Assembly (NCBI GenBank): GCA_006212115.1
Contig: PDUK01000016.1
Coordinates: 1 to 64,000 of the forward strand
Length of the DNA: 64,000 nucleotides
Direction of reading: 5' to 3'
Origin: Thalassolituus sp.
GTDB lineage: Bacteria; Pseudomonadota; Gammaproteobacteria; Pseudomonadales; Oceanobacteraceae
Positions within the stretch are counted from its first letter, which is position 1; each line of letters starts with the position of its first letter. The notes under the pieces were generated by a model that had not been told where the DNA came from, made no database searches, and was given only the letters and a program-made list of their open reading frames with translations. Below, one piece after another: positions 213 to 11,960 of the stretch. Made by a program: the position numbers and the translations under genes.

Positions 213-1046
213 TTAACCCTTCTTAAAGATGTTCTCGTACACGTGGTTCGTTGCTTCAACGAATCCATCGATACTTCCGCAATCGAAGCGAGTACCACGG
301 AACTTATACGCGAGAACGCAGCCTTCCTGAGCCTGCTTCAGCAGCGCGTCAGTAATCTGTACCTCACCATTTTTACCCGGAGGTGTATCTTTAATCTTGT
401 CAAAGATGTCTGGAGTCAGAATGTAGCGACCAATAATGGCGAGGTTGCTAGGGGCATCTTCGTTGGCAGGTTTCTCAACCATGTCGGTGACACGGAAGAG
501 GCCATCTTTCATTTCTTCGCCTGCGATCACGCCGTACTTGTGCACTTCTTCCTGTGGCACTTCTTGTACCGCAACGACAGAGCAGCGGAACTGATTGAAA
601 ATTTTGACCATCTGAGAAAGAACACCCTCGCCGTCTTCGGCCGGGATACACAGGTCATCCGCCAGTACGACCGCGAATGGCTCATCACCCATGAGGTATT
701 TGCCCGACAGGATAGCGTGGCCAAGGCCTTTCATGTGGTTCTGACGTTTGAACGCGAACTCGTTCTCGTCAATCAGTTTGCGGATAGAAGTCAGAAGGTT
801 TTCTTTACCTGAACCCTCGATTTCCTTTTCAAGCTCGTAGGAGATATCGAAATGGTCAGCAATGGCACGTTTACCTCGGCCAGTGATGAAGCCTATGCGA
901 TTCATTCCCGCCTCAGCGGCTTCTTCTACGCCATACTGTACGAGAGGTTTGTTTACTACCGGGAGCATTTCCTTCGGCATCGCTTTTGTGGCCGGGAGGA
1001 AGCGGGTGCCGTAGCCAGCAACCGGAAACAGGCATTTGCGGATCAT
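213..1046 (-). CDS. galU: UTP--glucose-1-phosphate uridylyltransferase
   Basis: GalU makes UDP-glucose from UTP and glucose-1-phosphate in the cytoplasm, supplying envelope sugars and glucosyltransferases. The N-terminus carries the nucleotidyltransferase signature PVAGYGTRFLPATKAMPKEM, followed by KPLVQYGVEEA and, further on, VVLADDLC and EKPANEDAPSNLAIIGRYIL, all typical of bacterial GalU. Length (277 aa) fits the family. The frame is open from an upstream ATG at 1070, but the ATG at 1046 has a good AAGGA ribosome site nine bases ahead and gives the usual GalU start MIRKCLFPV, so I chose it. The gene diverges from zwf and lies near genes that use or release glucose-1-phosphate, so it may help feed the glucosylglycerate synthase at 7931-9157. 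Confidence 0.95.
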   Translation of the reverse strand: MIRKCLFPVAGYGTRFLPATKAMPKEMLPVVNKPLVQYGVEEAAEAGMNRIGFITGRGKRAIADHFDISYELEKEIEGSGKENLLTSIRKLIDENEFAFKRQNHMKGLGHAILSGKYLMGDEPFAVVLADDLCIPAEDGEGVLSQMVKIFNQFRCSVVAVQEVPQEEVHKYGVIAGEEMKDGLFRVTDMVEKPANEDAPSNLAIIGRYILTPDIFDKIKDTPPGKNGEVQITDALLKQAQEGCVLAYKFRGTRFDCGSIDGFVEATNHVYENIFKKG

Positions 1047-1334
1047 TGACGTCTTTCCTTGTTCAGACATGGGAGTTAGTACCTTTTAAAGAGGGCAGAT
1101 TATGGCAGATTCGTTACCGTTTTGCGTCATTCTGCGAGCTTGCCCTGATTATTTTTGAGCACTTTTCTGCTCGTCCTGAATCACAATGGTGCAAGTATGA
1201 TGCCGACGGTATGGAACATGCTTGATCGTTAATCATTGGCAAGAAACTGACTTGGTTGCAATCAAGCCGCATGAATCTTGGTATGCAGGCCGGGACTCGA
1301 CAGGGCTTCTATACTGTAAGGGCTGAGGCTCTCT

Positions 1335-1349
1335 TGATTGCATACTACA
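1335..1349. promoter_or_regulatory. Possible HexR-type half-palindrome upstream of zwf
   Basis: TGATTGCATACTACA matches one half (ACTACA) of the HexR consensus TGTARTWWWAYTACA exactly, but the other half poorly. It lies about 30 bases before the zwf start, where HexR controls zwf and edd in many gammaproteobacteria. No hexR gene is adjacent. This is a weak motif match and an inference. Confidence 0.22.
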
Positions 1350-1380
1350 GCGCCCCAAAATGAAACACTGGAGGTATTGA

Positions 1381-2838
1381 ATGCACATTGATGCACCGTT
1401 TGAACTGGTTTTGTTTGGTGGGTTAGGGGACCTGGCACTGCGCAAGCTTATGCCAGCTTTGTTTCTGTTACATAGGGATGGACGTCTTCCCGATGGCGTT
1501 ATCTATGCCGTGACCCGGCGTGACATTCCGCGCGATGCGTTTGTCGCCAAAATAGAGTCATCGATCAAATCGCATGTGCCATCTAATTATCTGGAAAAGG
1601 AACCTGTTGAATCCTTTCTGGAGAAGGTCCAGTGCTTTACGCTCGATGTGAATGAATCGAAAGGCTACAAGGCGCTTGCCAAGGCGCTGTCATCGAATGA
1701 CATAAACCGCCTTTTTTACATGGCCACAGGTTCAGACCTGTACACGCCCATATGTCGTGGATTACACGATGCGGACCTGATTAAGTCGCAGAGTAAGATC
1801 GTTCTGGAGAAACCCATCGGTCATGACCTCAAGACCGCGGAGATCATTAATCAGACCGTTGCTGAATTTTTTGCCGAAAAGCAGATCTACCGTATTGATC
1901 ACTACCTCGGTAAAGAAACGGTTCAGAACCTGATGGTATTACGATTTGCCAACTCCTTGTTTGAGTCGCAATGGAATCAGCACTACATCGACCACATACA
2001 AATCACTATTTCAGAGCAGCTTGGTGTTGAGCAACGCGCTGAGTTTTATGAGCACGTAGGCGCAATGCGCGACATGTTCCAGAACCATCTTCTGCAGCTT
2101 CTCTGTATTACTGCGATGGAACCCCCTGCAAAGCTTGAACCCGATGCTGTGCGCGATGAGAAAGTGAAAGTACTCAAAGCACTGAAACCCATCACAGGTG
2201 AAATGATTAACGAAAACGTGGTGCGGGGTCAGTATGACTCGGGAGTCGCCGATGGTAAGCCGGTTCCACGGTACCGTGATGAGCCCGGAGTACACGACAA
2301 ATCGTTGACCGAAACTTTTATCGCCGCGAAAGTCGAAATAGATAACTGGCGTTGGGCTGGTGTGCCTTTTTATCTGAGAACGGGCAAACGCCTGGCGGAA
2401 AGGGCGTGTGAAATTGTCGTGCAATTTAAAGAAATTCCGCACTCCATATTTCCACTTCAGCATAAAAATACGATGGCGAACAAATTGATATTTCGTCTAC
2501 AGCCGGACGAAGGTGTGCGCTTAATGCTGTGTGAAAAGCGCGTCGGGCCGGGAATGAATGTGCGTCCGATGAATTTGAGTCTTAATCCATCCAATCAACG
2601 CCAGACACGGGTGCCAGAGGCCTACGAACGACTGCTCTACGATGCACTTAGTGGCAATGCAACCCTGTTCCTGAGAGACGATGAACTTATAGAGGCCTGG
2701 CGTTGGGTCGATCCGATTATTAAATTCTGGCAAGAACAGGAGCAACGGCCGGAACCCTACACTGCAGGAACCTGGGGTCCTGCGGCCGCCACGTTGCTGC
2801 TAGCTCGTGATGGACGTCTCTGGGACGAAAATAGCTGA
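1381..2838 (+). CDS. zwf: Glucose-6-phosphate 1-dehydrogenase
   Basis: Zwf oxidises glucose-6-phosphate to 6-phosphogluconolactone with NAD(P)+, the entry step to the Entner-Doudoroff and pentose phosphate routes. The N-terminal Rossmann motif reads FGGLGDLALRKLMPALF; family members usually have GASGDL, so the loop is slightly unusual. The active-site signature RIDHYLGKE sits at residues 171-179. EKPIGHD and RTGKRL are also present. The 485-aa length is normal. An ATG with GGAGG upstream fixes the start. This is the first gene of a plus-strand operon with pgl, edd, eda and a GH13 phosphorylase. The gap to pgl is 69 bases and all later junctions are tight. Confidence 0.97.
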   Translation: MHIDAPFELVLFGGLGDLALRKLMPALFLLHRDGRLPDGVIYAVTRRDIPRDAFVAKIESSIKSHVPSNYLEKEPVESFLEKVQCFTLDVNESKGYKALAKALSSNDINRLFYMATGSDLYTPICRGLHDADLIKSQSKIVLEKPIGHDLKTAEIINQTVAEFFAEKQIYRIDHYLGKETVQNLMVLRFANSLFESQWNQHYIDHIQITISEQLGVEQRAEFYEHVGAMRDMFQNHLLQLLCITAMEPPAKLEPDAVRDEKVKVLKALKPITGEMINENVVRGQYDSGVADGKPVPRYRDEPGVHDKSLTETFIAAKVEIDNWRWAGVPFYLRTGKRLAERACEIVVQFKEIPHSIFPLQHKNTMANKLIFRLQPDEGVRLMLCEKRVGPGMNVRPMNLSLNPSNQRQTRVPEAYERLLYDALSGNATLFLRDDELIEAWRWVDPIIKFWQEQEQRPEPYTAGTWGPAAATLLLARDGRLWDENS

Positions 2839-2907
2839 AATCGTAGATACGTGATAAGCCTGAAAATAAATACATCAAATGACAAGGCAGTTTGGGAGAG
2901 AGAAAAC

Positions 2908-3612
2908 ATGACAGATAACCGATTTACATCACCCGATGCTTTAGCGCGACAGCTTGCGGATGATCTGGCGGGGAAAATGCGTGAATCGATTGCTGCTCGC
3001 GGTCGTGTCTGTATTGCTGTCAGCGGAGGGTCGACACCCGTTCGTTTTTTGGAAGAGTTATCAAAGCGCAAGCTCGATTGGAGCAAAGTACGGGTTACGC
3101 TGGTTGACGAACGCTGGGTAGATGAGTCTGATGCAGCGAGCAATGCAGCTTTGGTGAAACGTCACCTGCTACAGAATGAGGCCTCTCAGACCTATTTCTT
3201 TTCATTAAAAAATAAAGCACCTGGCCCGGTAGATGGATTCATGGAATGCGAAAATGGCTTACATGAATTAATGGTGAGACTGGACTTTGCGGTACTTGGC
3301 ATGGGGAACGACGGTCATACTGCATCCTGGTTTCCTGATTCAGATGCGCTACCGAAATGTCTTGATGAAGGCAATTCAGCCTGGTGTTGTCCCGTTATTG
3401 ATGAGCCCACAGGTTTACCAAGAATGACGCTGACCTGGGGGCTGTTATCCAACTGTCGCCATCTCTATCTGCACTTTGAAGGCGATGAAAAGAATCGTGT
3501 GTACGCCAAAGCATGTGAAGAGAAGGAGCGGCAGAATATCAGTGCGATGCCCATACGGTCGGTGCTGTATCAGTCGCAAGTCCCATTGAGCATTTATCGG
3601 AGTGAAGAATGA
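2908..3612 (+). CDS. pgl: 6-phosphogluconolactonase
   Basis: Pgl hydrolyses 6-phosphogluconolactone to 6-phosphogluconate, the step after Zwf. Family marks are the sugar-phosphate loop AVSGGSTPVRFLEEL, the VTLVDERWV segment and GMGNDGHTASWFPDS. The frame stays open 19 codons upstream, but the ATG at 2908 has a GGGAGAG ribosome site and starts the conserved region properly, giving 234 aa, normal for DevB-type lactonases. Its stop overlaps the edd start by four bases (ATGA), indicating translational coupling. Confidence 0.95.
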   Translation: MTDNRFTSPDALARQLADDLAGKMRESIAARGRVCIAVSGGSTPVRFLEELSKRKLDWSKVRVTLVDERWVDESDAASNAALVKRHLLQNEASQTYFFSLKNKAPGPVDGFMECENGLHELMVRLDFAVLGMGNDGHTASWFPDSDALPKCLDEGNSAWCCPVIDEPTGLPRMTLTWGLLSNCRHLYLHFEGDEKNRVYAKACEEKERQNISAMPIRSVLYQSQVPLSIYRSEE

Positions 3613-5432
3613 TCCATTCTGTTGTTGAGAGCGTTACCGATAAAATTCGCCGCCGAAGCAGTGATACTCGCCAGAAATACCTGGAGGATATGGAAGCGGC
3701 TTCGGCGAAAGGTACAGTGCGTTCCGCACTTAGTTGTACCAATCTGGCTCATGACTATGCATCAGCGAACGACGATGAAAAGCTCATACTAAAAAGCAGC
3801 AGTCGTAGTGCTAATGTGGCCATTATTAATGCCTACAACGACGTCCTTTCTGCTCATGCACCGTACCGGCATTACCCGGATTTGCTGAAGAAATTTCTCT
3901 CCGAAAAAGGCCACGTTGCACAGATGGCTGGTGGTGTTCCTGCAATGTGTGATGGCGTCACTCAGGGACAGACAGGGATGGAACTGTCGTTATTCAGCCG
4001 CGACGTGATCGCGATGAGCACGGCTGTGGCGTTGTCTCACCAGGTCTTTGACGGCAGTCTGATGTTGGGTATTTGTGACAAGATTGTCCCCGGTTTAGTC
4101 ATGGCCGCCTTGCGTTTTGGTCACCTGCCAGCGGTATTTGTCCCTTCCGGGCCAATGCACAGCGGTATCAGTAATTCAGAGAAAGCGAAAACAAGGCAGG
4201 CATTCGCTCGGGGGGAGGTCGGCGAAGCCGAATTACTCGAAAGTGAAATGGGGTCCTACCACAGTGAAGGAACCTGCACATTTTACGGCACTGCTAACTC
4301 AAATCAGATGTTGATGGAGATAATGGGCCTTCAGCTTCCTGGCTCTTCGTTCGTTAACCCCGACGCTGGACTGCGTGAACCCCTGACCCGGGCTGCAGCA
4401 CATCGTCTGGCAGAGATCACTGCACTGGAGCCCGGCTACATGCCGATGGCAAAAATCGTCGATGAGAAAGTCATGGTCAATGCCATGGTCGGGTTATTAG
4501 CGACGGGTGGATCGACTAATCACAGTATTCATCTGGTCGCCATTGCTCGTATGGCTGGAATCCTGATTGACTGGCAGGACATGGCAGAGCTGTCAGAAGT
4601 GGTGCCCCTCCTGACGCGTATGTACCCAAATGGCAGTGCCGATGTGAATGCGTTTGAACGTGCCGGTGGGATGCCATTTCTTATTCGTGAATTGTTGGAT
4701 GCAGGCTTACTTCATGAAGATGTAAATACCATTTTAGGCGCGGGCTTACGTCAATGGTGTCGCCGTCCAGTTCTGACGGATGGGGGCGAACTGGAATGGG
4801 AAGCAATGGAAGGTGAGTCGGCCGATCTCAGTGTACTGGCCCCCGCACACGCGCCATTCTTACGTGAAGGCGGGATGAAGTTGGTCAGCGGAAACTTGGG
4901 CAGGGCCATTATGAAGGTATCAGCGGTTCCTGATGACCGCTGGGTTATTGATGCCCCCGCGCGTGTATTTACCGATCAGCAACAGGTATTGGTGGCGTAT
5001 CAAGCTGGTGAGTTAAATCAGGATGTTATCGTCGTCGTAAAAGGGCAGGGACCAAAAGCCAACGGTATGCCAGAGCTGCATCAGCTTACCCCTGCATTGA
5101 CCAATCTGCAGGAAGCCGGTTACCGGGTGGCACTAGTAACCGATGGAAGGTTATCGGGCGCATCCGGAAAAGTTCCAGCTGCAATACATTTGAGTCCGGA
5201 AGCGTTGGATGATGGTCCAATTCATGCGGTGAGGGACGGAGATCGTATTCTCCTGGACGGTCATAAAGGTGTATTGGGCGTGGTAGATGGCAACTTCGAA
5301 CAACGTCTGAAAGAAGACCGAGCGCCACTGGATGTCAGTGATTCACAGCAAGGCGTTGGACGGGAGTTATTTGCCGGATTCCGCCAGCTTGCCGGCCCAG
5401 CGGATCAGGGCGCCATCAGTCTGGGCCTCTGA
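3609..5432 (+). CDS. edd: Phosphogluconate dehydratase
   Basis: Edd dehydrates 6-phosphogluconate to 2-keto-3-deoxy-6-phosphogluconate (KDPG), the committing step of the Entner-Doudoroff path. It belongs to the IlvD/Edd family of Fe-S dehydratases. Visible marks are AMCDGVTQGQTGMELSL, ICDKIVPG, EGTCTFYGTANSNQM and the C-terminal VTDGRLSGASGKVPAAIHL. The cluster cysteines fall in the first three of these segments. The 607-aa length matches the family. The start overlaps the pgl stop. The eda gene follows 50 bases later with no terminator between. Confidence 0.97.
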   Translation: MIHSVVESVTDKIRRRSSDTRQKYLEDMEAASAKGTVRSALSCTNLAHDYASANDDEKLILKSSSRSANVAIINAYNDVLSAHAPYRHYPDLLKKFLSEKGHVAQMAGGVPAMCDGVTQGQTGMELSLFSRDVIAMSTAVALSHQVFDGSLMLGICDKIVPGLVMAALRFGHLPAVFVPSGPMHSGISNSEKAKTRQAFARGEVGEAELLESEMGSYHSEGTCTFYGTANSNQMLMEIMGLQLPGSSFVNPDAGLREPLTRAAAHRLAEITALEPGYMPMAKIVDEKVMVNAMVGLLATGGSTNHSIHLVAIARMAGILIDWQDMAELSEVVPLLTRMYPNGSADVNAFERAGGMPFLIRELLDAGLLHEDVNTILGAGLRQWCRRPVLTDGGELEWEAMEGESADLSVLAPAHAPFLREGGMKLVSGNLGRAIMKVSAVPDDRWVIDAPARVFTDQQQVLVAYQAGELNQDVIVVVKGQGPKANGMPELHQLTPALTNLQEAGYRVALVTDGRLSGASGKVPAAIHLSPEALDDGPIHAVRDGDRILLDGHKGVLGVVDGNFEQRLKEDRAPLDVSDSQQGVGRELFAGFRQLAGPADQGAISLGL

Positions 5433-5482
5433 TACACGTCTCAGAGCAGCGATTCAGCAGCCTTAAACGGAGTACAACAATT

Positions 5483-6091
5483 ATGTGGACGACTTGGTTA
5501 AAGCAGGCAAAGCCTGTGATGCCCGTCATTGTAATCGACGATATTGAATACGCGGTGCCTATGGCGGAAGCACTTGTTGCGGGTGGTGTGAAGTTTCTGG
5601 AAATAACGCTTCGTACGCCTGCTGCACTCGAAGCCATTGGTTTGATCAGTCAGGAAGTTCCCGATGCCATTATTGGTGTTGGTACAGTGACTACACCGAA
5701 GCAGTTGCATGATGCACTGAACCAGGGCGCAGAGTTTGCGGTGAGCCCCGGTTTTACCCCAAAGCTGTTGGACGCTGCCAAAGAGTGGGGCGGAGCATAT
5801 TTGCCCGGTGTTGCGACACCCAGTGAAGTGATGCAAGCACGGGAAGCGGGATTTCAATATATGAAGTTTTTTCCTGCGGTGCCGAGCGGCGGACGCTCAA
5901 TGCTTAAGGCGATTGGTGCTCCAATTCCAGATGTGAAGTTCTGTCCGACCGGTGGCATCAGCGCCGAAACTTTTCACGACTTTCTTGCCCTGGAAAATGT
6001 CTTCGCTGTTGGTGGTAGCTGGTTGACACCCGCTTCGGCTATTTCGGCACAGAATTGGCAGGAGATTAAAGATCTCGCTTCACAAATTTAA
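5483..6091 (+). CDS. eda: KDPG/KHG aldolase
   Basis: Eda cleaves KDPG into pyruvate and glyceraldehyde-3-phosphate, completing the Entner-Doudoroff pathway. The class I aldolase residues are visible: Glu40 in LEITLRTP and the Schiff-base lysine Lys128 in QYMKFFPA, with the phosphate-binding stretch CPTGGIS further on. The 202-aa length is typical. The GH13 phosphorylase gene starts nine bases after the stop codon, so that enzyme is almost certainly co-transcribed with the Entner-Doudoroff genes. Confidence 0.97.
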   Translation: MWTTWLKQAKPVMPVIVIDDIEYAVPMAEALVAGGVKFLEITLRTPAALEAIGLISQEVPDAIIGVGTVTTPKQLHDALNQGAEFAVSPGFTPKLLDAAKEWGGAYLPGVATPSEVMQAREAGFQYMKFFPAVPSGGRSMLKAIGAPIPDVKFCPTGGISAETFHDFLALENVFAVGGSWLTPASAISAQNWQEIKDLASQI

Positions 6092-6100
6092 GGGAATTGC

Positions 6101-7843
6101 ATGACTCTCGCTGCGCTCGAACAATTTACACAACGTGCACAACAAATCTATGGCGACGAGCAGGACTGTGCGGCAATCGCACGTGAAGTACTGAATCTTT
6201 GTCAGCGGTTCGCGGGTGCGACATCCCGTTCCGTGCTGGATGAGGCCACGCCGGTAAGTCACAAGCGTTGGTCAGAAAAAGACGTCATTCTGATCACCTA
6301 TGGCAATAGCATTCAGACGGCGGATGAAATGCCGTTAAAAACATTGTCGGACTTTCTTAAAGACAGACTGGCAGACGTCATCAACTCCGTTCATATATTG
6401 CCGTTTTTTCCGTACAGCTCCGATGACGGATTCTCTGTTATTGATTACAAGCAGGTTCATCCTGACTGGGGCGACTGGGGAGACGTAGCGTCGATAGCGC
6501 AGAATTTTGATCTGATGATTGATCTGGTGATCAACCATTGCTCTCGCGAAAACCTTTGGTTTATTGACTACATCGGTAACCGTGAGCCCTATATCGATTA
6601 CTTTATCGAGGTAGATCCGGAGACTGACGTCTCTTTGGTTACCCGACCGCGTAACACTCCTTTGCTGACGCCGGTCTACACCCACCATGGCATTAAACAT
6701 GTTTGGGCGACCTTTTCTGAGGATCAGATTGATCTGAACTTTGCTAACCCGGCGGTTTTGTTCGAGTTTATTAAAATCTATCTCTTTTATATTGAGCAGG
6801 GTGCCCGATTCATTCGTCTGGATGCGGTGGCATTTCTATGGAAGCAACTTGGAACAACCTGCCTTCACCTGAGTCAGACTCATGCTGCGGTTAAGTTACT
6901 CAGGGATGTGGTTAATTTCGTTGCACCCGAAGTCGTTGTTATCACGGAGACCAACGTTCCCGTGGAAGAGAACCTGAGTTATTTTGGTGAGTCCGACGAA
7001 GCGCATATGGTGTACCAGTTTGGATTACCGCCTCTGGTTTTACATGCGTTAAATCGCGGTAATGCCTCCTTTCTGACCGACTGGGCAGATGCCATACCAC
7101 CGTTACCGGAAGGGTGTACTTATCTGAACTTCACTGCGTCACATGATGGCATTGGAGTACGCCCGGTTGAAGGGTTATTACCTGAGCGTGAAGTACAGGA
7201 CCTGATTGACTCTATGCACCGCTTTGGTGGTTTCGTCAGTATGAAGGCGAACAGCGACGGTACCGAGAGCCCTTATGAAATCAATATAACTTTGTTTGAT
7301 GCCTGCATGGGCACACGACGTGGCCCAGATCATTATCAGGTTCAACGCTTCCTGTGTTCACAGGCGATTATGCTGGCAATGCAGGGTGTACCTGCAGTGT
7401 ATATTCATAGTCTTACAGCGTCCCCGAATGATATTGAGCACGTTGAACAGACAGGGCGAACCCGTTCTATCAACCGGCGAATATGGGATGAACAGGAATT
7501 AGAACATTTGCTGTCGAACCCCGTTACACCACAGGCTGAAGTATTTACCGAATTGACGCGTATGCTTCGTATCCGACGCGATCAACCCGCATTTCATCCC
7601 GATGCACGTCAGGACGTGATTAAAATTAATACCGATTTATTTATTCTGAAGCGCACCAGTGAGGATGGAGAACAACGCTTGTTTGCCTTATCCAATGTGA
7701 CGGAGCGTATTCTGAAGTTACCGTTGGCAACCCTGGGATTCCTGGAGAATGGCTTGTCAGACCTTCTCGCTCATGAACCGAGCATTATCGAAGATGAGCT
7801 GGTCTTATTTCCGTACCAAACAGTCTGGTTATCAAACACTTGA
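6101..7843 (+). CDS. GH13_18 phosphorylase, probably glucosylglycerate phosphorylase
   Basis: This is a sucrose-phosphorylase-type glycoside hydrolase (GH13 subfamily 18), 580 aa. The retaining triad is readable: nucleophile Asp241 in RLDAVAF, acid/base Glu283 in ITETNVP, and Asp349 in ASHDGIGVRP. Such enzymes use phosphate to split an alpha-glucoside into glucose-1-phosphate and an acceptor. Members of this subfamily act on sucrose, sucrose-6-phosphate, glucosylglycerol or glucosylglycerate, and sequence alone does not separate these safely. The neighbouring convergent operon makes glucosylglycerate and phosphorylates glycerate, which points to glucosylglycerate as substrate. It is the last gene of the zwf-pgl-edd-eda operon, so its product can enter the Entner-Doudoroff route after phosphoglucomutase. 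A bidirectional terminator follows. Confidence 0.8.
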   Translation: MTLAALEQFTQRAQQIYGDEQDCAAIAREVLNLCQRFAGATSRSVLDEATPVSHKRWSEKDVILITYGNSIQTADEMPLKTLSDFLKDRLADVINSVHILPFFPYSSDDGFSVIDYKQVHPDWGDWGDVASIAQNFDLMIDLVINHCSRENLWFIDYIGNREPYIDYFIEVDPETDVSLVTRPRNTPLLTPVYTHHGIKHVWATFSEDQIDLNFANPAVLFEFIKIYLFYIEQGARFIRLDAVAFLWKQLGTTCLHLSQTHAAVKLLRDVVNFVAPEVVVITETNVPVEENLSYFGESDEAHMVYQFGLPPLVLHALNRGNASFLTDWADAIPPLPEGCTYLNFTASHDGIGVRPVEGLLPEREVQDLIDSMHRFGGFVSMKANSDGTESPYEINITLFDACMGTRRGPDHYQVQRFLCSQAIMLAMQGVPAVYIHSLTASPNDIEHVEQTGRTRSINRRIWDEQELEHLLSNPVTPQAEVFTELTRMLRIRRDQPAFHPDARQDVIKINTDLFILKRTSEDGEQRLFALSNVTERILKLPLATLGFLENGLSDLLAHEPSIIEDELVLFPYQTVWLSNT

Positions 7844-7873
7844 GTACCGTGTAATCGCATTTTCTGGCAAAAG

Positions 7874-7914
7874 AAAAACGCCCCGTTCATATTACTGATA
7901 CGGGGCGTTTTTTA
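7874..7914. terminator. Bidirectional terminator between converging operons
   Basis: A perfect 13-bp inverted repeat, AAAAACGCCCCGT at 7874-7886 and ACGGGGCGTTTTT at 7900-7912, has a 13-nt loop. The A and T tracts on either side make it work in both directions, for the plus-strand phosphorylase operon and the minus-strand gpgS operon. Confidence 0.93.
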
Positions 7915-7930
7915 TATCAGAGCGACTTAC

Positions 7931-9157
7931 TTATTCGCTACCGAATTCGCTGTTATCTGCTTCCACTGCTTCGTACAGACGATCCAGAATATCAGGCACC
8001 GCAGAAATGACACGGTTCCAGCTTGGAATAAACGGTGTTTCCATTGGATTCGCGAGGAAATGCTCACCGGCGTTCATGATATTCTCAGCGAATAACTCAA
8101 CCGCTTTCTCTTCAGCGTGGCGATCAAGCTCCAGGCCATTCATGCGCGCATCGTTGTGGTAAGTTTCGATGAAGTCCAGTGCAACGCGGAAATACGTCGC
8201 TTTGATCGTACGGAAGGTCTCAGTCGTGAAGACCTCACCTTGCGTGGCAAGCTTGCGGAAAATAGCTTTACAGATATCCGTACTCATTTTTGACAGACCG
8301 GCGCTGGCGTCTTCTTCCGAAAGCGGCTGGTGCTTATGGTCGTAGACGTCCGCAATATCAACCTGACAGATACGGTTAGTCGAATAGTTCCGTTTCATTT
8401 CAGACAGTACGCCGATCTCAAGACCCCAGTCACTCGGGATACGGATATCGTTCAGAGCATCGGTTCGCATTGAGAATTCACCCGAGAGTGGATAGCGGAA
8501 GCTGTCTAAATACTCCAGAAAATCGAGAGATCCATACACTTTCTTAAGTGCGCGCAGGAGAGGGGTAACCAGCAAGCGGCTGACCCGACCATTCAATTTT
8601 TGCTCTGCGATACGGGTGTAGTAGCCCTTACCAAACACGTAGTTAAACCCAGGATGGGCAACCGGATAAATCAGGCGAGCAAGCAGGCTACGGTCGTAGG
8701 TTACGATATCGCAATCATGCAGAGCCACGGATTCCGCACGCCCTGACGCCAGGACATAGCCATAGCAATACCAAACGTTACGGCCTTTACCCATTTCAGT
8801 TGGAGCGAGGCCTTTTTCCTGCAGCATGGCATCCAAAGCTTTGAGGCGTGGGCCGTCATTCCAGAGGATGCGATGGTGTTGCGGCAGGCGAGAGAAAAAT
8901 GTTTGAGCAAACTCGTGTTGTGCTTTGTCGGCACGGTCCAGGCCAATCACAATTTCGTTCAGGTAGGGGACTTGTGCAACTTCATCAACAATATGACTGA
9001 GGGCAGGGCCCTCCAGCTCGGAAAAGAGGGAAGGCAACACCAGAGACATCGGGCGTAAACGTGAAAAACTCATAAGTTCACGTTCTAAATCTTCAACCGG
9101 TCGATCGGTGAGGTTGTGCAGAGTGGTTACAATGCCGTTCTGATAAAAATCAGCCAC
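7931..9157 (-). CDS. gpgS: Glucosyl-3-phosphoglycerate synthase (GT81-type)
   Basis: The enzyme transfers glucose from an NDP-glucose to 3-phosphoglycerate, making glucosyl-3-phosphoglycerate, precursor of the compatible solute glucosylglycerate. Family marks are the N-terminal nucleotide-binding LPSLFSEL, the IVIGLDRAD strand, the metal-binding DCD in LHDCDIVTYDRS, and GEFSMRTDAL with GLEIGVLSEM, as in GpgS and MpgS-like GT-A enzymes. Length 408 aa fits bacterial GpgS. It is the last gene of a three-gene minus-strand operon and its start overlaps the phosphatase gene by eight bases. An assignment to mannosyl-3-phosphoglycerate synthase is less likely from overall similarity but cannot be excluded by eye. 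Confidence 0.85.
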   Translation of the reverse strand: MADFYQNGIVTTLHNLTDRPVEDLERELMSFSRLRPMSLVLPSLFSELEGPALSHIVDEVAQVPYLNEIVIGLDRADKAQHEFAQTFFSRLPQHHRILWNDGPRLKALDAMLQEKGLAPTEMGKGRNVWYCYGYVLASGRAESVALHDCDIVTYDRSLLARLIYPVAHPGFNYVFGKGYYTRIAEQKLNGRVSRLLVTPLLRALKKVYGSLDFLEYLDSFRYPLSGEFSMRTDALNDIRIPSDWGLEIGVLSEMKRNYSTNRICQVDIADVYDHKHQPLSEEDASAGLSKMSTDICKAIFRKLATQGEVFTTETFRTIKATYFRVALDFIETYHNDARMNGLELDRHAEEKAVELFAENIMNAGEHFLANPMETPFIPSWNRVISAVPDILDRLYEAVEADNSEFGSE

Positions 9158-9980
9158 TGCAGGTCTCCTTAAGCAGTTTTTCTAGTAAAGATAAAATGGC
9201 GCTGTTCCAGCCCTTCGGGCCTTTAAAGTCAGCGGTAATCGTATTTGTATTGTTAAGTTCGAGGGTACCCGATTCGCCGGGGATAACAACCGGGTAGTCG
9301 GACGCTTCAAGCATGGCTTTATCGTTCTCTCCATCGCCAAGCGCAATGACGATGGGCGGTGTATCCAACAGCCAGCGTTGGGTGTAGTGATGGCGGAAGA
9401 AATCGACAGCGGAGGCTTTATCTGCGTCGCCCATCACGTGATAAAAACGCCCACCTTTTAACAGGCGCAGTCCGTGAGCATTCAGGGCCTGACGAAAATG
9501 CTCAATGTCACCAGTATCGTCACCGCGCCAGAGCAGGGGCTCGGTTGCTGCTCTCTGACGGGCAAAGTGTGCGTCGTCTGTACTCAGGCCAGTTACCGCC
9601 GCGACTTCGGTGTCGGTCATGTCATTAAAACCGCGAAAGTTGAACCCGTCTTTTCTCAGATCATGCAGTACGTGCAGAATATCGGAGTAACTCGCTCCGG
9701 GCAGTTCGCAAAGCCATTCTGGCTCGCCGTCAGTATCGACAGTCGAGTAGTAAATAGCGCCACCATTCTCACACACGTAGGGAGACGTATTCGCTAGTGT
9801 ACGGCGCAGTTGCAGTACCTCAGGCTGGGTTTTACTGGTGTTAAAAATGACGGGTATCTGGAGGCGCTTAAGAAGCGTCAGCGCCTCTGTTGCGGCGGTG
9901 GTGCTGTAGTCGTGATGATCAAGTAAGGTGCCGTCGAGATCGGTCAGTACGATAATCGGTACCGTCGGGCATTGAGTCAT
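9150..9980 (-). CDS. HAD phosphatase, glucosyl-/mannosyl-3-phosphoglycerate phosphatase family
   Basis: This 276-aa HAD-superfamily protein should dephosphorylate glucosyl-3-phosphoglycerate to glucosylglycerate. Motif I is LTDLDGTLLDHHDY, motif II lies at IFNTSKTQ, and the acidic motif IV is ALGDGENDKAML, with the Cof-type cap between them. The family is usually annotated as mannosyl-3-phosphoglycerate phosphatase (MpgP/YedP), whose members often accept both sugars. Overlaps of four bases with the kinase gene upstream and eight bases with gpgS downstream show one translationally coupled operon, which argues for the glucosyl substrate here. Confidence 0.85.
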   Translation of the reverse strand: MTQCPTVPIIVLTDLDGTLLDHHDYSTTAATEALTLLKRLQIPVIFNTSKTQPEVLQLRRTLANTSPYVCENGGAIYYSTVDTDGEPEWLCELPGASYSDILHVLHDLRKDGFNFRGFNDMTDTEVAAVTGLSTDDAHFARQRAATEPLLWRGDDTGDIEHFRQALNAHGLRLLKGGRFYHVMGDADKASAVDFFRHHYTQRWLLDTPPIVIALGDGENDKAMLEASDYPVVIPGESGTLELNNTNTITADFKGPKGWNSAILSLLEKLLKETCSG

Positions 9981-10915
9981 GTTCTGAATTCCCTGGTTTG
10001 AATGTCAGCGACTTTGTGTTCGTCGTTGATCGACAGTATCAGGTTGGCAAGTTCTGGCAGGCGGGTCAATGCCTGTCGGGTTAAACGCTCATAATGTTGG
10101 ATAAAGCGTTGTATTGCGGCCTCATCAAGACTGCGGTCGGTCGCACCTTTCGCCATTTTTTTATTGCCGACTTCCTGTTGTGTTCGCCAACGCTGTACCG
10201 CAGCCATATCCGGAACCTTCAACATGATCAGGAAGTCGATTGCGGAAAACCATTCTTTGTAGGGGCCTGCGAGCTGCTGGTTTACCCAACCTCGCCATAC
10301 ACCGTCTTCATCTTCCTGTTCTTCAAGCTCATTAACTGGGCTGTACAGCAATTCATCCTGCACGGATTGGCAGCCGACACACCAACCTTCGAACAGAATG
10401 GCATCAACAGGCCCAGAGACCTGATGCCATTGCGATTCGGGCAAGCGATCGTCGCTGGCTTTGTCGAATGCTGGAATCGAGCAGGTGTCGCCTTGCTTTA
10501 GTTGTCTCAGTGTCTTAAACAGCGCAATTCCACGGTCTACCTCGTGCGTACCCGGGACTCCGCGAGTGGCAAGGAGGGGGTGGATATCTTTGCTGAGAGA
10601 CTGTCGATCGGCGTGGGAAAGGTAGAGGTCATCAATCGACACGACGACGATATTCCAGCCAAACACAGCCTTGTATATATCTTTAAGCGCGAGCGAAAGT
10701 GTACTTTTACCGGAGCCCTGTCCGCCGTGAATACCAATAACCGGCGGTAGCGGAGAATCTGAGATTATCCCTGCCAATGTTGCCGCCAATGGCGCCCAGA
10801 CTTCTTGCCACTGGCTAAGCCACCCCTCAGGGATACGAGTATCTGCTGGGGGGTGTGGAAGGATGGCATTTAACCTCGATGTATCGGGTGTCAGGTTTTC
10901 GGGCCAGCCAGTCAT
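9977..10915 (-). CDS. D-glycerate 3-kinase (GLYK type)
   Basis: A P-loop kinase of 312 aa resembling plant-type glycerate kinase and E. coli YggC. The Walker A motif is GIHGGQGSGKSTLS, followed by VVSIDDLYLSHADR and the conserved RGVPGTHEVDRG and FDKASDDRLP segments, then LFEGWCVGC. GLYK enzymes convert D-glycerate to 3-phosphoglycerate. As first gene of the gpgS operon it would recover the glycerate released when glucosylglycerate is phosphorolysed, and so regenerate the acceptor used by GpgS. The ATG at 10915 lies close to the divergent prephenate dehydratase promoter. Confidence 0.87.
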   Translation of the reverse strand: MTGWPENLTPDTSRLNAILPHPPADTRIPEGWLSQWQEVWAPLAATLAGIISDSPLPPVIGIHGGQGSGKSTLSLALKDIYKAVFGWNIVVVSIDDLYLSHADRQSLSKDIHPLLATRGVPGTHEVDRGIALFKTLRQLKQGDTCSIPAFDKASDDRLPESQWHQVSGPVDAILFEGWCVGCQSVQDELLYSPVNELEEQEDEDGVWRGWVNQQLAGPYKEWFSAIDFLIMLKVPDMAAVQRWRTQQEVGNKKMAKGATDRSLDEAAIQRFIQHYERLTRQALTRLPELANLILSINDEHKVADIQTREFRT

Positions 10916-10995
10916 AGTCTATTCCTTTCGATCGTCGTTACGTGCTCGTCTTATTAACATAACCGTCTGCACGCACTGTGCCATAGCACTGTGCA

Positions 10996-11025
10996 TTGTA
11001 TTGCTGTGCGGGTGGGAAGTATGAT
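10996..11025 (+). promoter_or_regulatory. Possible sigma-70 promoter for prephenate dehydratase
   Basis: TTGTAT at 10996-11001 and TATGAT at 11020-11025 are separated by 18 bases and lie about 85 bases before the chosen start. The intergenic segment 10916-11111 shows nothing else striking. Confidence 0.35.
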
Positions 11026-11111
11026 CTTGAGGAATGCGATAGAGGATAGTGGCACTTAATCAGTGCACGTCCTCTATGCAAACCTATTTTGCACTATTTT
11101 GGAGCATCGTA

Positions 11112-11960
11112 ATGGCACGAGTCGCCTATCAGGGAACCGCAGGGGCCTATTCCCATTTGGCCTGCACACAGGTATTTCCAGATTGGGAGTATCTGGCCTG
11201 TGACGATTTTCTGAGTGCACTGGATCTGGTCAGTGGTGGCTTTGCCGAGCGTGCAATGATTCCTCTGGAGAACTCCACGGCAGGTCGTGTAGAAGAGATT
11301 TATCGTCTGATTCCGCGTACTCAACTATGCGTAATCGCTGAGCATTTTGAACCTGTGAATCATTGCTTACTGGCGTTACCCGGTGTCAGTGTGGAAGAGC
11401 TAAAGACCGTCCGTTCTCACCCACAGGCTCTCGCCCAATGTCATCAGAGATTGTTGAGTATGGGGTTGAAGGCGGAGGCAGCGGTAGACACGGCCATGTC
11501 CGCTCGAGATCTGATAACCCGTGGCGACCGGAGTAATGCGGCAATTGCTTCCTCACTGGCGGCCGAGCTGTATGGCTTGGATATATTGCAAGAGCAGTTT
11601 CAGGATGTCTCGGGTAATACGACCCGGTTTCTGGTGTTTGCCCGAGAGCCAGAACACAGCGAATACCAGTCTGGCATCCGCTATATCACCAGCTTATTGT
11701 TCTCTGTAAGAAACATGCCCGCGGCTTTGTATAAAGCCTTGGGTGGGTTTGCAACCAACGGTGTGAACATGGCAAAGCTTGAGAGTTATATGGACGGCGG
11801 CACCATGGAGGCCAGTCATTTTCATCTGGATATCTACGGACATCCTGAGCAGGCGCATGTACGAAACGCACTGGAAGAGCTGAGTTATTTTGCCAGCGAA
11901 GTACGTATCTTGGGGAGCTATCCGGCCCATGGCTACAGAAAAACGACTGAGTTTGTTTGA
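11112..11960 (+). CDS. pheA: Prephenate dehydratase (monofunctional)
   Basis: The enzyme converts prephenate to phenylpyruvate in phenylalanine synthesis. The catalytic domain fills roughly residues 1-185 (start MARVAYQGTAGAYSH, then IPLENSTAGRV and the catalytic NTTRFLV), and a C-terminal ACT domain with NMAKLESYMDGG senses phenylalanine. No chorismate mutase domain is attached, unlike the usual gammaproteobacterial P-protein, so this resembles the alphaproteobacterial monofunctional form. The frame is open 21 codons upstream, but the ATG at 11112 has GGAG eight bases before it and starts at the conserved residue. It stands alone, diverging from the glycerate kinase operon. Confidence 0.92.
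   Translation: MARVAYQGTAGAYSHLACTQVFPDWEYLACDDFLSALDLVSGGFAERAMIPLENSTAGRVEEIYRLIPRTQLCVIAEHFEPVNHCLLALPGVSVEELKTVRSHPQALAQCHQRLLSMGLKAEAAVDTAMSARDLITRGDRSNAAIASSLAAELYGLDILQEQFQDVSGNTTRFLVFAREPEHSEYQSGIRYITSLLFSVRNMPAALYKALGGFATNGVNMAKLESYMDGGTMEASHFHLDIYGHPEQAHVRNALEELSYFASEVRILGSYPAHGYRKTTEFV

Follow-up and report, generated by a model that had tools for sequence, protein, structure and literature searches.

The window analysed here, 64,000 nucleotides long, opens contig C205 in the genome bin of a Thalassolituus sp. (G000; 3.28 Mb, completeness 84.5%, contamination 4.86%). Near its beginning, the genes zwf-pgl-edd-eda, which lead into and through the Entner-Doudoroff pathway, are followed by ggaP, predicted to encode a glucosylglycerate phosphorylase (GGaP) of family GH13_18. 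A second row of genes, with putative roles in making glucosylglycerate and in salvaging glycerate, converges on ggaP from the other side. The locus comprises the following features:

1381 to 2838, plus strand: zwf, glucose-6-phosphate dehydrogenase (TIGR00871, 582.1 bits; cut-off 400.6)
2908 to 3612, plus strand: pgl, 6-phosphogluconolactonase (TIGR01198, 163.8 bits; cut-off 124.45)
3609 to 5432, plus strand: edd, phosphogluconate dehydratase (TIGR01196, 917 bits; cut-off 708.25)
5483 to 6091, plus strand: eda, 2-keto-3-deoxy-6-phosphogluconate aldolase (TIGR01182, 246.5 bits; cut-off 156.05)
6101 to 7843, plus strand: ggaP, predicted GH13_18 glucosylglycerate phosphorylase of 580 amino acids (TETN motif, loop-A Glu, similarity to Escherichia coli YcjM)
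7873 to 7913, T-rich on both strands: terminator-like hairpin between the convergent operons (fold of -24.4 kcal/mol)
7931 to 9157, minus strand: gpgS, glucosyl-3-phosphoglycerate synthase-like glycosyltransferase (NF040724, 364.9 bits; weak match to solved GpgS)
9150 to 9980, minus strand: gpgP, HAD-IIB phosphatase of the mannosyl/glucosyl-3-phosphoglycerate phosphatase family (TIGR01486, 218.4 bits; cut-off 164.75)
9977 to 10915, minus strand: glyK, D-glycerate 3-kinase-like P-loop kinase (similar to the solved GLYK 7xpc and 6ckg; PF00485, 23.9 bits; cut-off 22)
213 to 1070, minus strand: nucleotidyltransferase, which we take to be galU-like (UTP-glucose-1-phosphate uridylyltransferase; PF00483, E 2.4e-31)

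The original prediction was that a GH13_18 phosphorylase with an intact catalytic triad closes the zwf-pgl-edd-eda row 9 bases past eda, and both the coordinates and the alignment agree with it. The same prediction of a coupled convergent operon for a GpgS-like synthase, a HAD phosphatase and a glycerate 3-kinase also stands; the order is glyK-gpgP-gpgS, with overlaps of 4 bases (glyK/gpgP) and 8 bases (gpgP/gpgS). This zwf is the sole zwf match in the genome bin, and this edd is the single one above cut-off. The open reading frame of pgl begins at a GTG (2851), and comparison with the gene of Thalassolituus maritimus, whose product begins MTDNRFKS, suggests that translation probably starts near the ATG at 2908.

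The hairpin between the two operons has 17 pairs (z -5.83), and 0 of 200 shuffled sequences were equally stable. It was missed by a simple terminator scan; terminator-like sites between 1000 and 11500 numbered 9, against 10.8 expected.

Signatures of the phosphorylase and its partner enzymes

According to the available sections of a 2020 review of GH13_18 (PMC7178133), two features mark glucosylglycerate phosphorylases: a Glu in loop A, at a position where most other clades carry a Gln, and, at the tip of strand 5, the motif (T/S)ETN. The window protein reads ITETN and SPYEIN at these places, as does E. coli YcjM, with which it shares 44% identity (232/526). The catalytic residues are all present, namely the Asp of FIRLDA (from residue 237), the Glu of ITETN (281) and the Asp of ASHDG (346). 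The pair of TETN and loop-A Glu was found in 84 of the 84 clade rows of a 94-row alignment, from which identical sequences had been removed and in which a copy from contig C224 was kept, so that the rows are not all independent. Of the other 10 rows, 3 belong to a glucosylglycerol-type phosphorylase and a split copy of it, and 7 are GH13 proteins of greater distance.

Loop A of the window protein, where SPYEIN stands, holds neither the sucrose phosphorylase motif N(L/V)D(I/L/V)YQ nor the sucrose-6-phosphate phosphorylase motif. Three solved chains, one a sucrose phosphorylase and two glucosylglycerol phosphorylases, have YQ at this position. The glucosylglycerol phosphorylase motif VGAIYQ is likewise missing from the window protein; GAIYQ occurs in a paralogue on contig C144 of the same bin. 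The sucrose phosphorylase model TIGR03852 gave 226.6 bits for the window protein, below its cut-off of 334.4, and 503.1 bits for the paralogue. Since the glucosylglycerol-type protein passes and the window protein fails, this model is no guide to substrate. The product of 6101 to 7843 is plausibly a glucosylglycerate phosphorylase, as predicted from these sequence signatures.

The paralogue on C144, of 480 amino acids and of the glucosylglycerol type, belongs to a cassette (L086:2410-7628, minus strand) in which the phosphorylase, a major facilitator superfamily transporter and a fused GgpPS (767 amino acids) follow in that order. The fused glucosylglycerol-phosphate phosphatase/synthase scored 753.1 bits against TIGR02398 (cut-off 569). 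A second version of this cassette lies on a short contig, C213 (L087). Contig C224 (L088) carries a second ggaP with pieces of eda and gpgS. This copy is 93% identical over its full length to that of RS342 (L006) and 76% to that of the window; being closer to RS342, it probably comes from another strain and is not a paralogue, and the presence of two GGaP paralogues in the genome was rejected on this alignment. On both C224 and C213, genes are split across two frames.

Concerning the synthesis and salvage enzymes, GpgS is similar over its whole length to NF040724 (residues 3-404), yet falls outside both equivalog models that it matched, with 364.9 bits against a cut-off of 700 for NF040724 and 72.5 against 262 for NF010496. 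Its DCD aligns with the metal-binding DxD of solved GpgS, which reads DSD, in a weak local match (E 1.9e-5). GpgP passes the cut-off of the HAD-IIB mannosyl-3-phosphoglycerate phosphatase subfamily without reaching the narrower phosphatase equivalogs, and its solved relatives are the E. coli structure 1xvi and the structure 3ztw (mannosyl-3-phosphoglycerate phosphatase). The best solved matches of GlyK are the D-glycerate 3-kinases 7xpc (E 2.6e-23) and 6ckg (E 2.8e-20), whose names suggest 3-phosphoglycerate, rather than 2-phosphoglycerate, as its product. With these assignments, the putative gpgS, gpgP and glyK complete the gene set published around ggaP.

Gene order and gene content among relatives

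Related loci were taken from the best 80 of 453 matches to the phosphorylase, a set that may omit records very close to the window genome. Within it, the nearest named relatives are T. maritimus and related metagenome-assembled genomes (89% identity), and the 19 nearest loci all come from the Thalassolituus-Oceanobacter-Bacterioplanes group. Fourteen of these 19 (L005-L013, L015-L018, L021), among them T. maritimus DSM 24913 (L005), share the order zwf-pgl-edd-eda-ggaP, with about 5 to 55 bases between eda and ggaP, and the arrangement in the window is therefore not due to chance. The wiring into the Entner-Doudoroff genes that had been proposed is, as a matter of gene order, real and conserved. 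In L022 zwf-pgl lies 3.5 kb upstream of ggaP. No zwf was found near ggaP in the 61 more distant loci, whose sequence extends beyond 9 kb upstream in 47 cases and beyond 9 kb to either side in 40. Searches of the open-licence literature on GGaP, the Entner-Doudoroff pathway and Thalassolituus brought up no description of a zwf-pgl-edd-eda-ggaP operon, which is new as far as searched.

The surroundings of the two operons vary. The galU-like gene is divergent from zwf in the window, and the two genes are also neighbours in L005-L009, L015, L017, L019, L020, L022 and L023 (11 of the nearest 19); its product is a possible source of UDP-glucose for GpgS. The spacing between ggaP and gpgS is 0.5-1.4 kb in L010-L013, L015, L016 and L021, and L010 has a regulator-like open reading frame between them (L010:11736-12422, minus strand). 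A GH13 gene, presumably alpha-glucosidase-like, lies beyond pheA in some relatives (L016:16644-18299, L013:16600-18207, and as GH13 matches in L010-L012, L019-L021 and L023), where the window itself has a histidine kinase; in the two that were scanned, every NCBIfam match was under cut-off. In Desulfuromonas BM304 (L027), glyK, gpgP, gpgS and ggaP all run in the same direction.

Gene content was compared across 20 genomes, namely G000 and those of the 19 nearest loci, and absences are weaker evidence for any single genome than for the whole set. Fifteen of them, including that of the window, have zwf-pgl-edd-eda-ggaP and are called fusion genomes; G010, G015, G016, G018 and G019 form the non-fusion set. 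Each fusion genome has one zwf and one edd above cut-off. Although edd is present in 20/20 genomes, in the non-fusion set it is sited elsewhere and scores 1021-1037 bits against TIGR01196, versus 899-938 in the fusion set. Two kinds of edd are seen in the group (L091, L092, L095), the kind outside the ggaP operon scoring about 100 bits higher against this model than the kind inside it. Two zwf genes are present in G015 and in G018.

The two sets also differ in sugar kinases and in glycogen synthesis. No Glk-type glucokinase above 30 bits was found in the 15 fusion genomes, where weak matches in 8 fall on ROK genes, whereas Glk is present in all five non-fusion genomes (314-357 bits); in four of them it follows edd at a distance of up to about 160 bases, and in G010 it is on another contig. 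Glycogen synthase of family GT5 was found in 1/15 fusion genomes versus 4/5 non-fusion genomes. Phosphofructokinase (PFK; PF00365, a model that does not take in PfkB-type kinases) matched in 0/20 genomes, its positive control having matched in 9 of 14 known genomes. For the EIIC component of the phosphotransferase system (PTS; PF02378; positive control 7 of 14) the result was also 0/20, non-PTS sugar transporters not having been searched for. As regards the use of sugars, the organisms tested in PMC6379940 were Alcanivorax, Marinobacter and Planomicrobium, not Thalassolituus. Gluconate kinase was above cut-off in none of the 20 genomes, 10 of which gave weak matches of 21-27 bits. Since no PFK was found, the Entner-Doudoroff and pentose pathways are the hexose-breaking routes visible in these genomes.

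Genes of the mutase family PF02878, which also includes phosphoglucosamine mutase, number at least two in each of the 20 genomes. A mutase-like gene adjoins galU in L015, L017 and L022 (267-amino-acid frame), and in L016 and L021 it immediately precedes zwf; none was seen at that place in L005. The one protein scanned, on which the mutase identity rests, is that of L016, and it gave a CpsG-like phosphomannomutase match below cut-off.

Proposed role and comparison with known systems

We propose that the locus serves to make, recycle and burn 2-O-glucosylglycerate, the osmolyte being an internal feed of the Entner-Doudoroff pathway. GpgS would join the glucose of a nucleotide sugar, perhaps UDP-glucose made by GalU, to 3-phosphoglycerate, and GpgP would strip the phosphate, after which we infer that glucosylglycerate accumulates. 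Once the solute is no longer needed, GGaP, presumably co-transcribed with the genes upstream and working in this direction in vivo, would phosphorolyse it to glucose-1-phosphate and D-glycerate. GlyK would return the glycerate to 3-phosphoglycerate, and a phosphoglucomutase, the sole extra enzyme needed for entry, would convert glucose-1-phosphate to glucose-6-phosphate. Zwf and Pgl would then oxidise glucose-6-phosphate, yielding NADPH, and Edd and Eda would cleave the product to pyruvate and glyceraldehyde-3-phosphate. Synthesis may be encoded in a separate operon because a futile cycle would arise if the solute were made and broken down at once. The original description of this store as phosphate-saving holds only relative to hydrolysis followed by a glucose kinase, which by general biochemistry would cost more; each turn of the cycle would still consume a nucleotide sugar and, at the glycerate kinase, one ATP.

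The proposal draws on the gene order, its conservation, the sequence signatures and the contrast in gene content. In particular, an internal feed is suggested because ggaP ends the only zwf/edd operon of genomes in which PFK, PTS EIIC and a Glk-type glucokinase were not found. A role as fuel is plausible here and has precedents. We give this reading a probability of about 0.6, a value lowered because the mutase candidates of G000 are identified no further than PF02878.

Several observations weigh against it, beginning with that family-level assignment and the limits of PF02878 and PF00365 given above. A full-length ROK kinase is present in 15/15 fusion genomes versus 0/5 non-fusion genomes and might phosphorylate glucose; its identity rests on one scanned protein (L089), for which the best model was fructokinase (364.5 bits, below the cut-off of 443). 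The complete absence of a sugar kinase from the fusion genomes is thereby ruled out. Glk (5/20) and ROK (15/20) are exact complements, in step with the position of edd. A four-gene tree places the five non-fusion genomes in one clade (support 1.00); it was built from the window, two outgroups and 17 of the 19 nearest loci, L017 and L018 being left out as their stretches hold no synthesis genes. The contrast in fusion, Glk and glycogen synthesis is therefore probably a single event, and no independent repeats of the fusion/Glk contrast were found in this tree. In a tree of ggaP only, L022 stands apart from the other non-fusion loci.

The regulatory scans and the synthesis genes also count on this side. 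A promoter scan from 1000 to 11500 found 2 sites versus 11.2 expected, none of them upstream of zwf or glyK. Joint control of both operons by HexR was rejected, as the HexR-type palindrome that we assumed for the scan had no match in either promoter; no common palindrome was seen by eye in the upstream alignments of the closest relatives. Outside the group, a glyK-like kinase was found near ggaP in only 2/61 loci, and gpgS in 35/61. The gpgS of G013 sits on a separate contig, which means that the two rows of genes need not converge. Ectoine synthase was found in 19/20 genomes, and together with the glucosylglycerol pathway of G000 it implies that glucosylglycerate need not be abundant.

These same two systems point to a salt-adapted lifestyle and fit a plainer explanation, in which GGaP trims glucosylglycerate upon a drop in salinity, its place after eda ensures steady expression and the return of carbon is incidental. 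The literature knows glucosylglycerate as a compatible solute, and PMC7178133 suggests that GGaP regulates how much of it is present. That 14 of the 19 relatives keep zwf-pgl-edd-eda-ggaP with little space between the genes argues otherwise, as does the glucosylglycerol phosphorylase of G000, which sits in no such operon, and we regard turnover without a fuel role as unlikely, although a serious contender. Phosphorolysis could instead supply Zwf with substrate for NADPH under oxidative or carbon stress, the Entner-Doudoroff genes being bystanders in the operon. Indeed, L019, L020 and L023 carry zwf-pgl-ggaP without edd-eda, edd being elsewhere; the Entner-Doudoroff genes are thus ruled out as a requirement for the linkage, and ggaP may be linked with the oxidation of glucose-6-phosphate instead, which is a further point against our proposal. 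Moreover, the single zwf of G016 and of G019 is the one on the ggaP stretch. However, the gaps of about 154-316 bases between pgl and ggaP in the three cases could hold a promoter, L014 has ggaP apart from zwf, and the Entner-Doudoroff genes stay within the operon in 14/19, so that an NADPH-only role appears improbable. Less probable still is that GGaP acts on another alpha-glucoside, or that it runs in reverse and makes glucosylglycerate out of glucose-1-phosphate and glycerate, alongside the GpgS route. In its favour, the reactions of GH13_18 can go both ways, and XpGP takes both sucrose and glycerate (PMC11009771, available text). Against it, loop A of the window protein has none of the sucrose, sucrose-6-phosphate or glucosylglycerol motifs, the TETN and Glu pair is present, and gpgS was found in 20/20 genomes.

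A wider version of the internal-feed reading is more tentative, and we consider it possible but doubtful. In Thalassolituus/Oleibacter, the Entner-Doudoroff pathway would be the burner of an internal store rather than a route for outside sugar, with a small charged osmolyte replacing glycogen as the hexose reserve. It is suggested by the fact that GT5 was not found in 14/15 fusion genomes, that ggaP lies in the only zwf/edd operon and that the clade with Glk beside edd is without this wiring.

The position of ggaP at the end of a sugar-burning operon suggests that a protective solute may double as fuel. What glucosylglycerate phosphorylase does in vivo still awaits experimental confirmation, according to PMC7178133, and the conserved arrangement is a good test bed for this unsettled role. 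The group has Thalassolituus among its members, a genus counted in the literature as one of the hydrocarbon-degrading bacteria. The fusion lineage and the related non-fusion clade form a natural pair for testing an osmolyte as a reserve of carbon and NADPH.

The closed glucosylglycerate cycle of the original prediction is supported as to its enzymes, plausibly assigned through their signatures and solved relatives, but the cycle with GGaP, GpgS, GpgP and glycerate kinase is already in print (PMC7178133, PMC11631117, as far as their available text goes), and the novelty lies in the operon place. The EC 2.4.1.352 enzymes of Meiothermus silvanus, Spirochaeta thermophila and E. coli (YcjM) have TETN and the loop-A Glu, like the window protein. 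Published glucosylglycerate phosphorylase genes are often accompanied by genes for GpgS, GpgP or glycerate kinase, as in the window (PMC7178133, same sections). In E. coli, putative ABC transporter genes come after ycjM, whereas the ggaP of the window ends zwf-pgl-edd-eda.

Among glucosylglycerol systems, Marinobacter has ggpPS immediately upstream of a GH13_18 phosphorylase gene, so that solute synthesis and phosphorylase adjoin. The version of this system on C144 of G000 differs from the window locus in its glucosylglycerol substrate, in GAIYQ in loop A and in having no link to the zwf operon.

Prochlorococcus NATL2A and Synechococcus PCC 7002 have glucosylglycerate genes (gpgS, gpgP, ggaP; tags A2021-A2023) that combine synthesis and recycling, as predicted for the window; in the window, unlike that gene set, a separate convergent operon would make the solute. 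The available text of PMC11631117 draws the Prochlorococcus operon with recycling to glucose-1-phosphate and 3-phosphoglycerate and discusses solutes as a possible energy store. It considers a storage role for glucosylglycerate there, prefers an outside source and mentions the Entner-Doudoroff pathway 0 times. The available part of PMC11009771 reports turnover in Synechococcus PCC 7002 and describes the mycobacterial pathway, in which a hydrolase yields glucose and glycerate, in contrast with the phosphorolysis to glucose-1-phosphate predicted here. Mycobacteria use glucosylglycerate as an energy source on recovery from nitrogen starvation, which is akin to the fuel role that we propose for the window.

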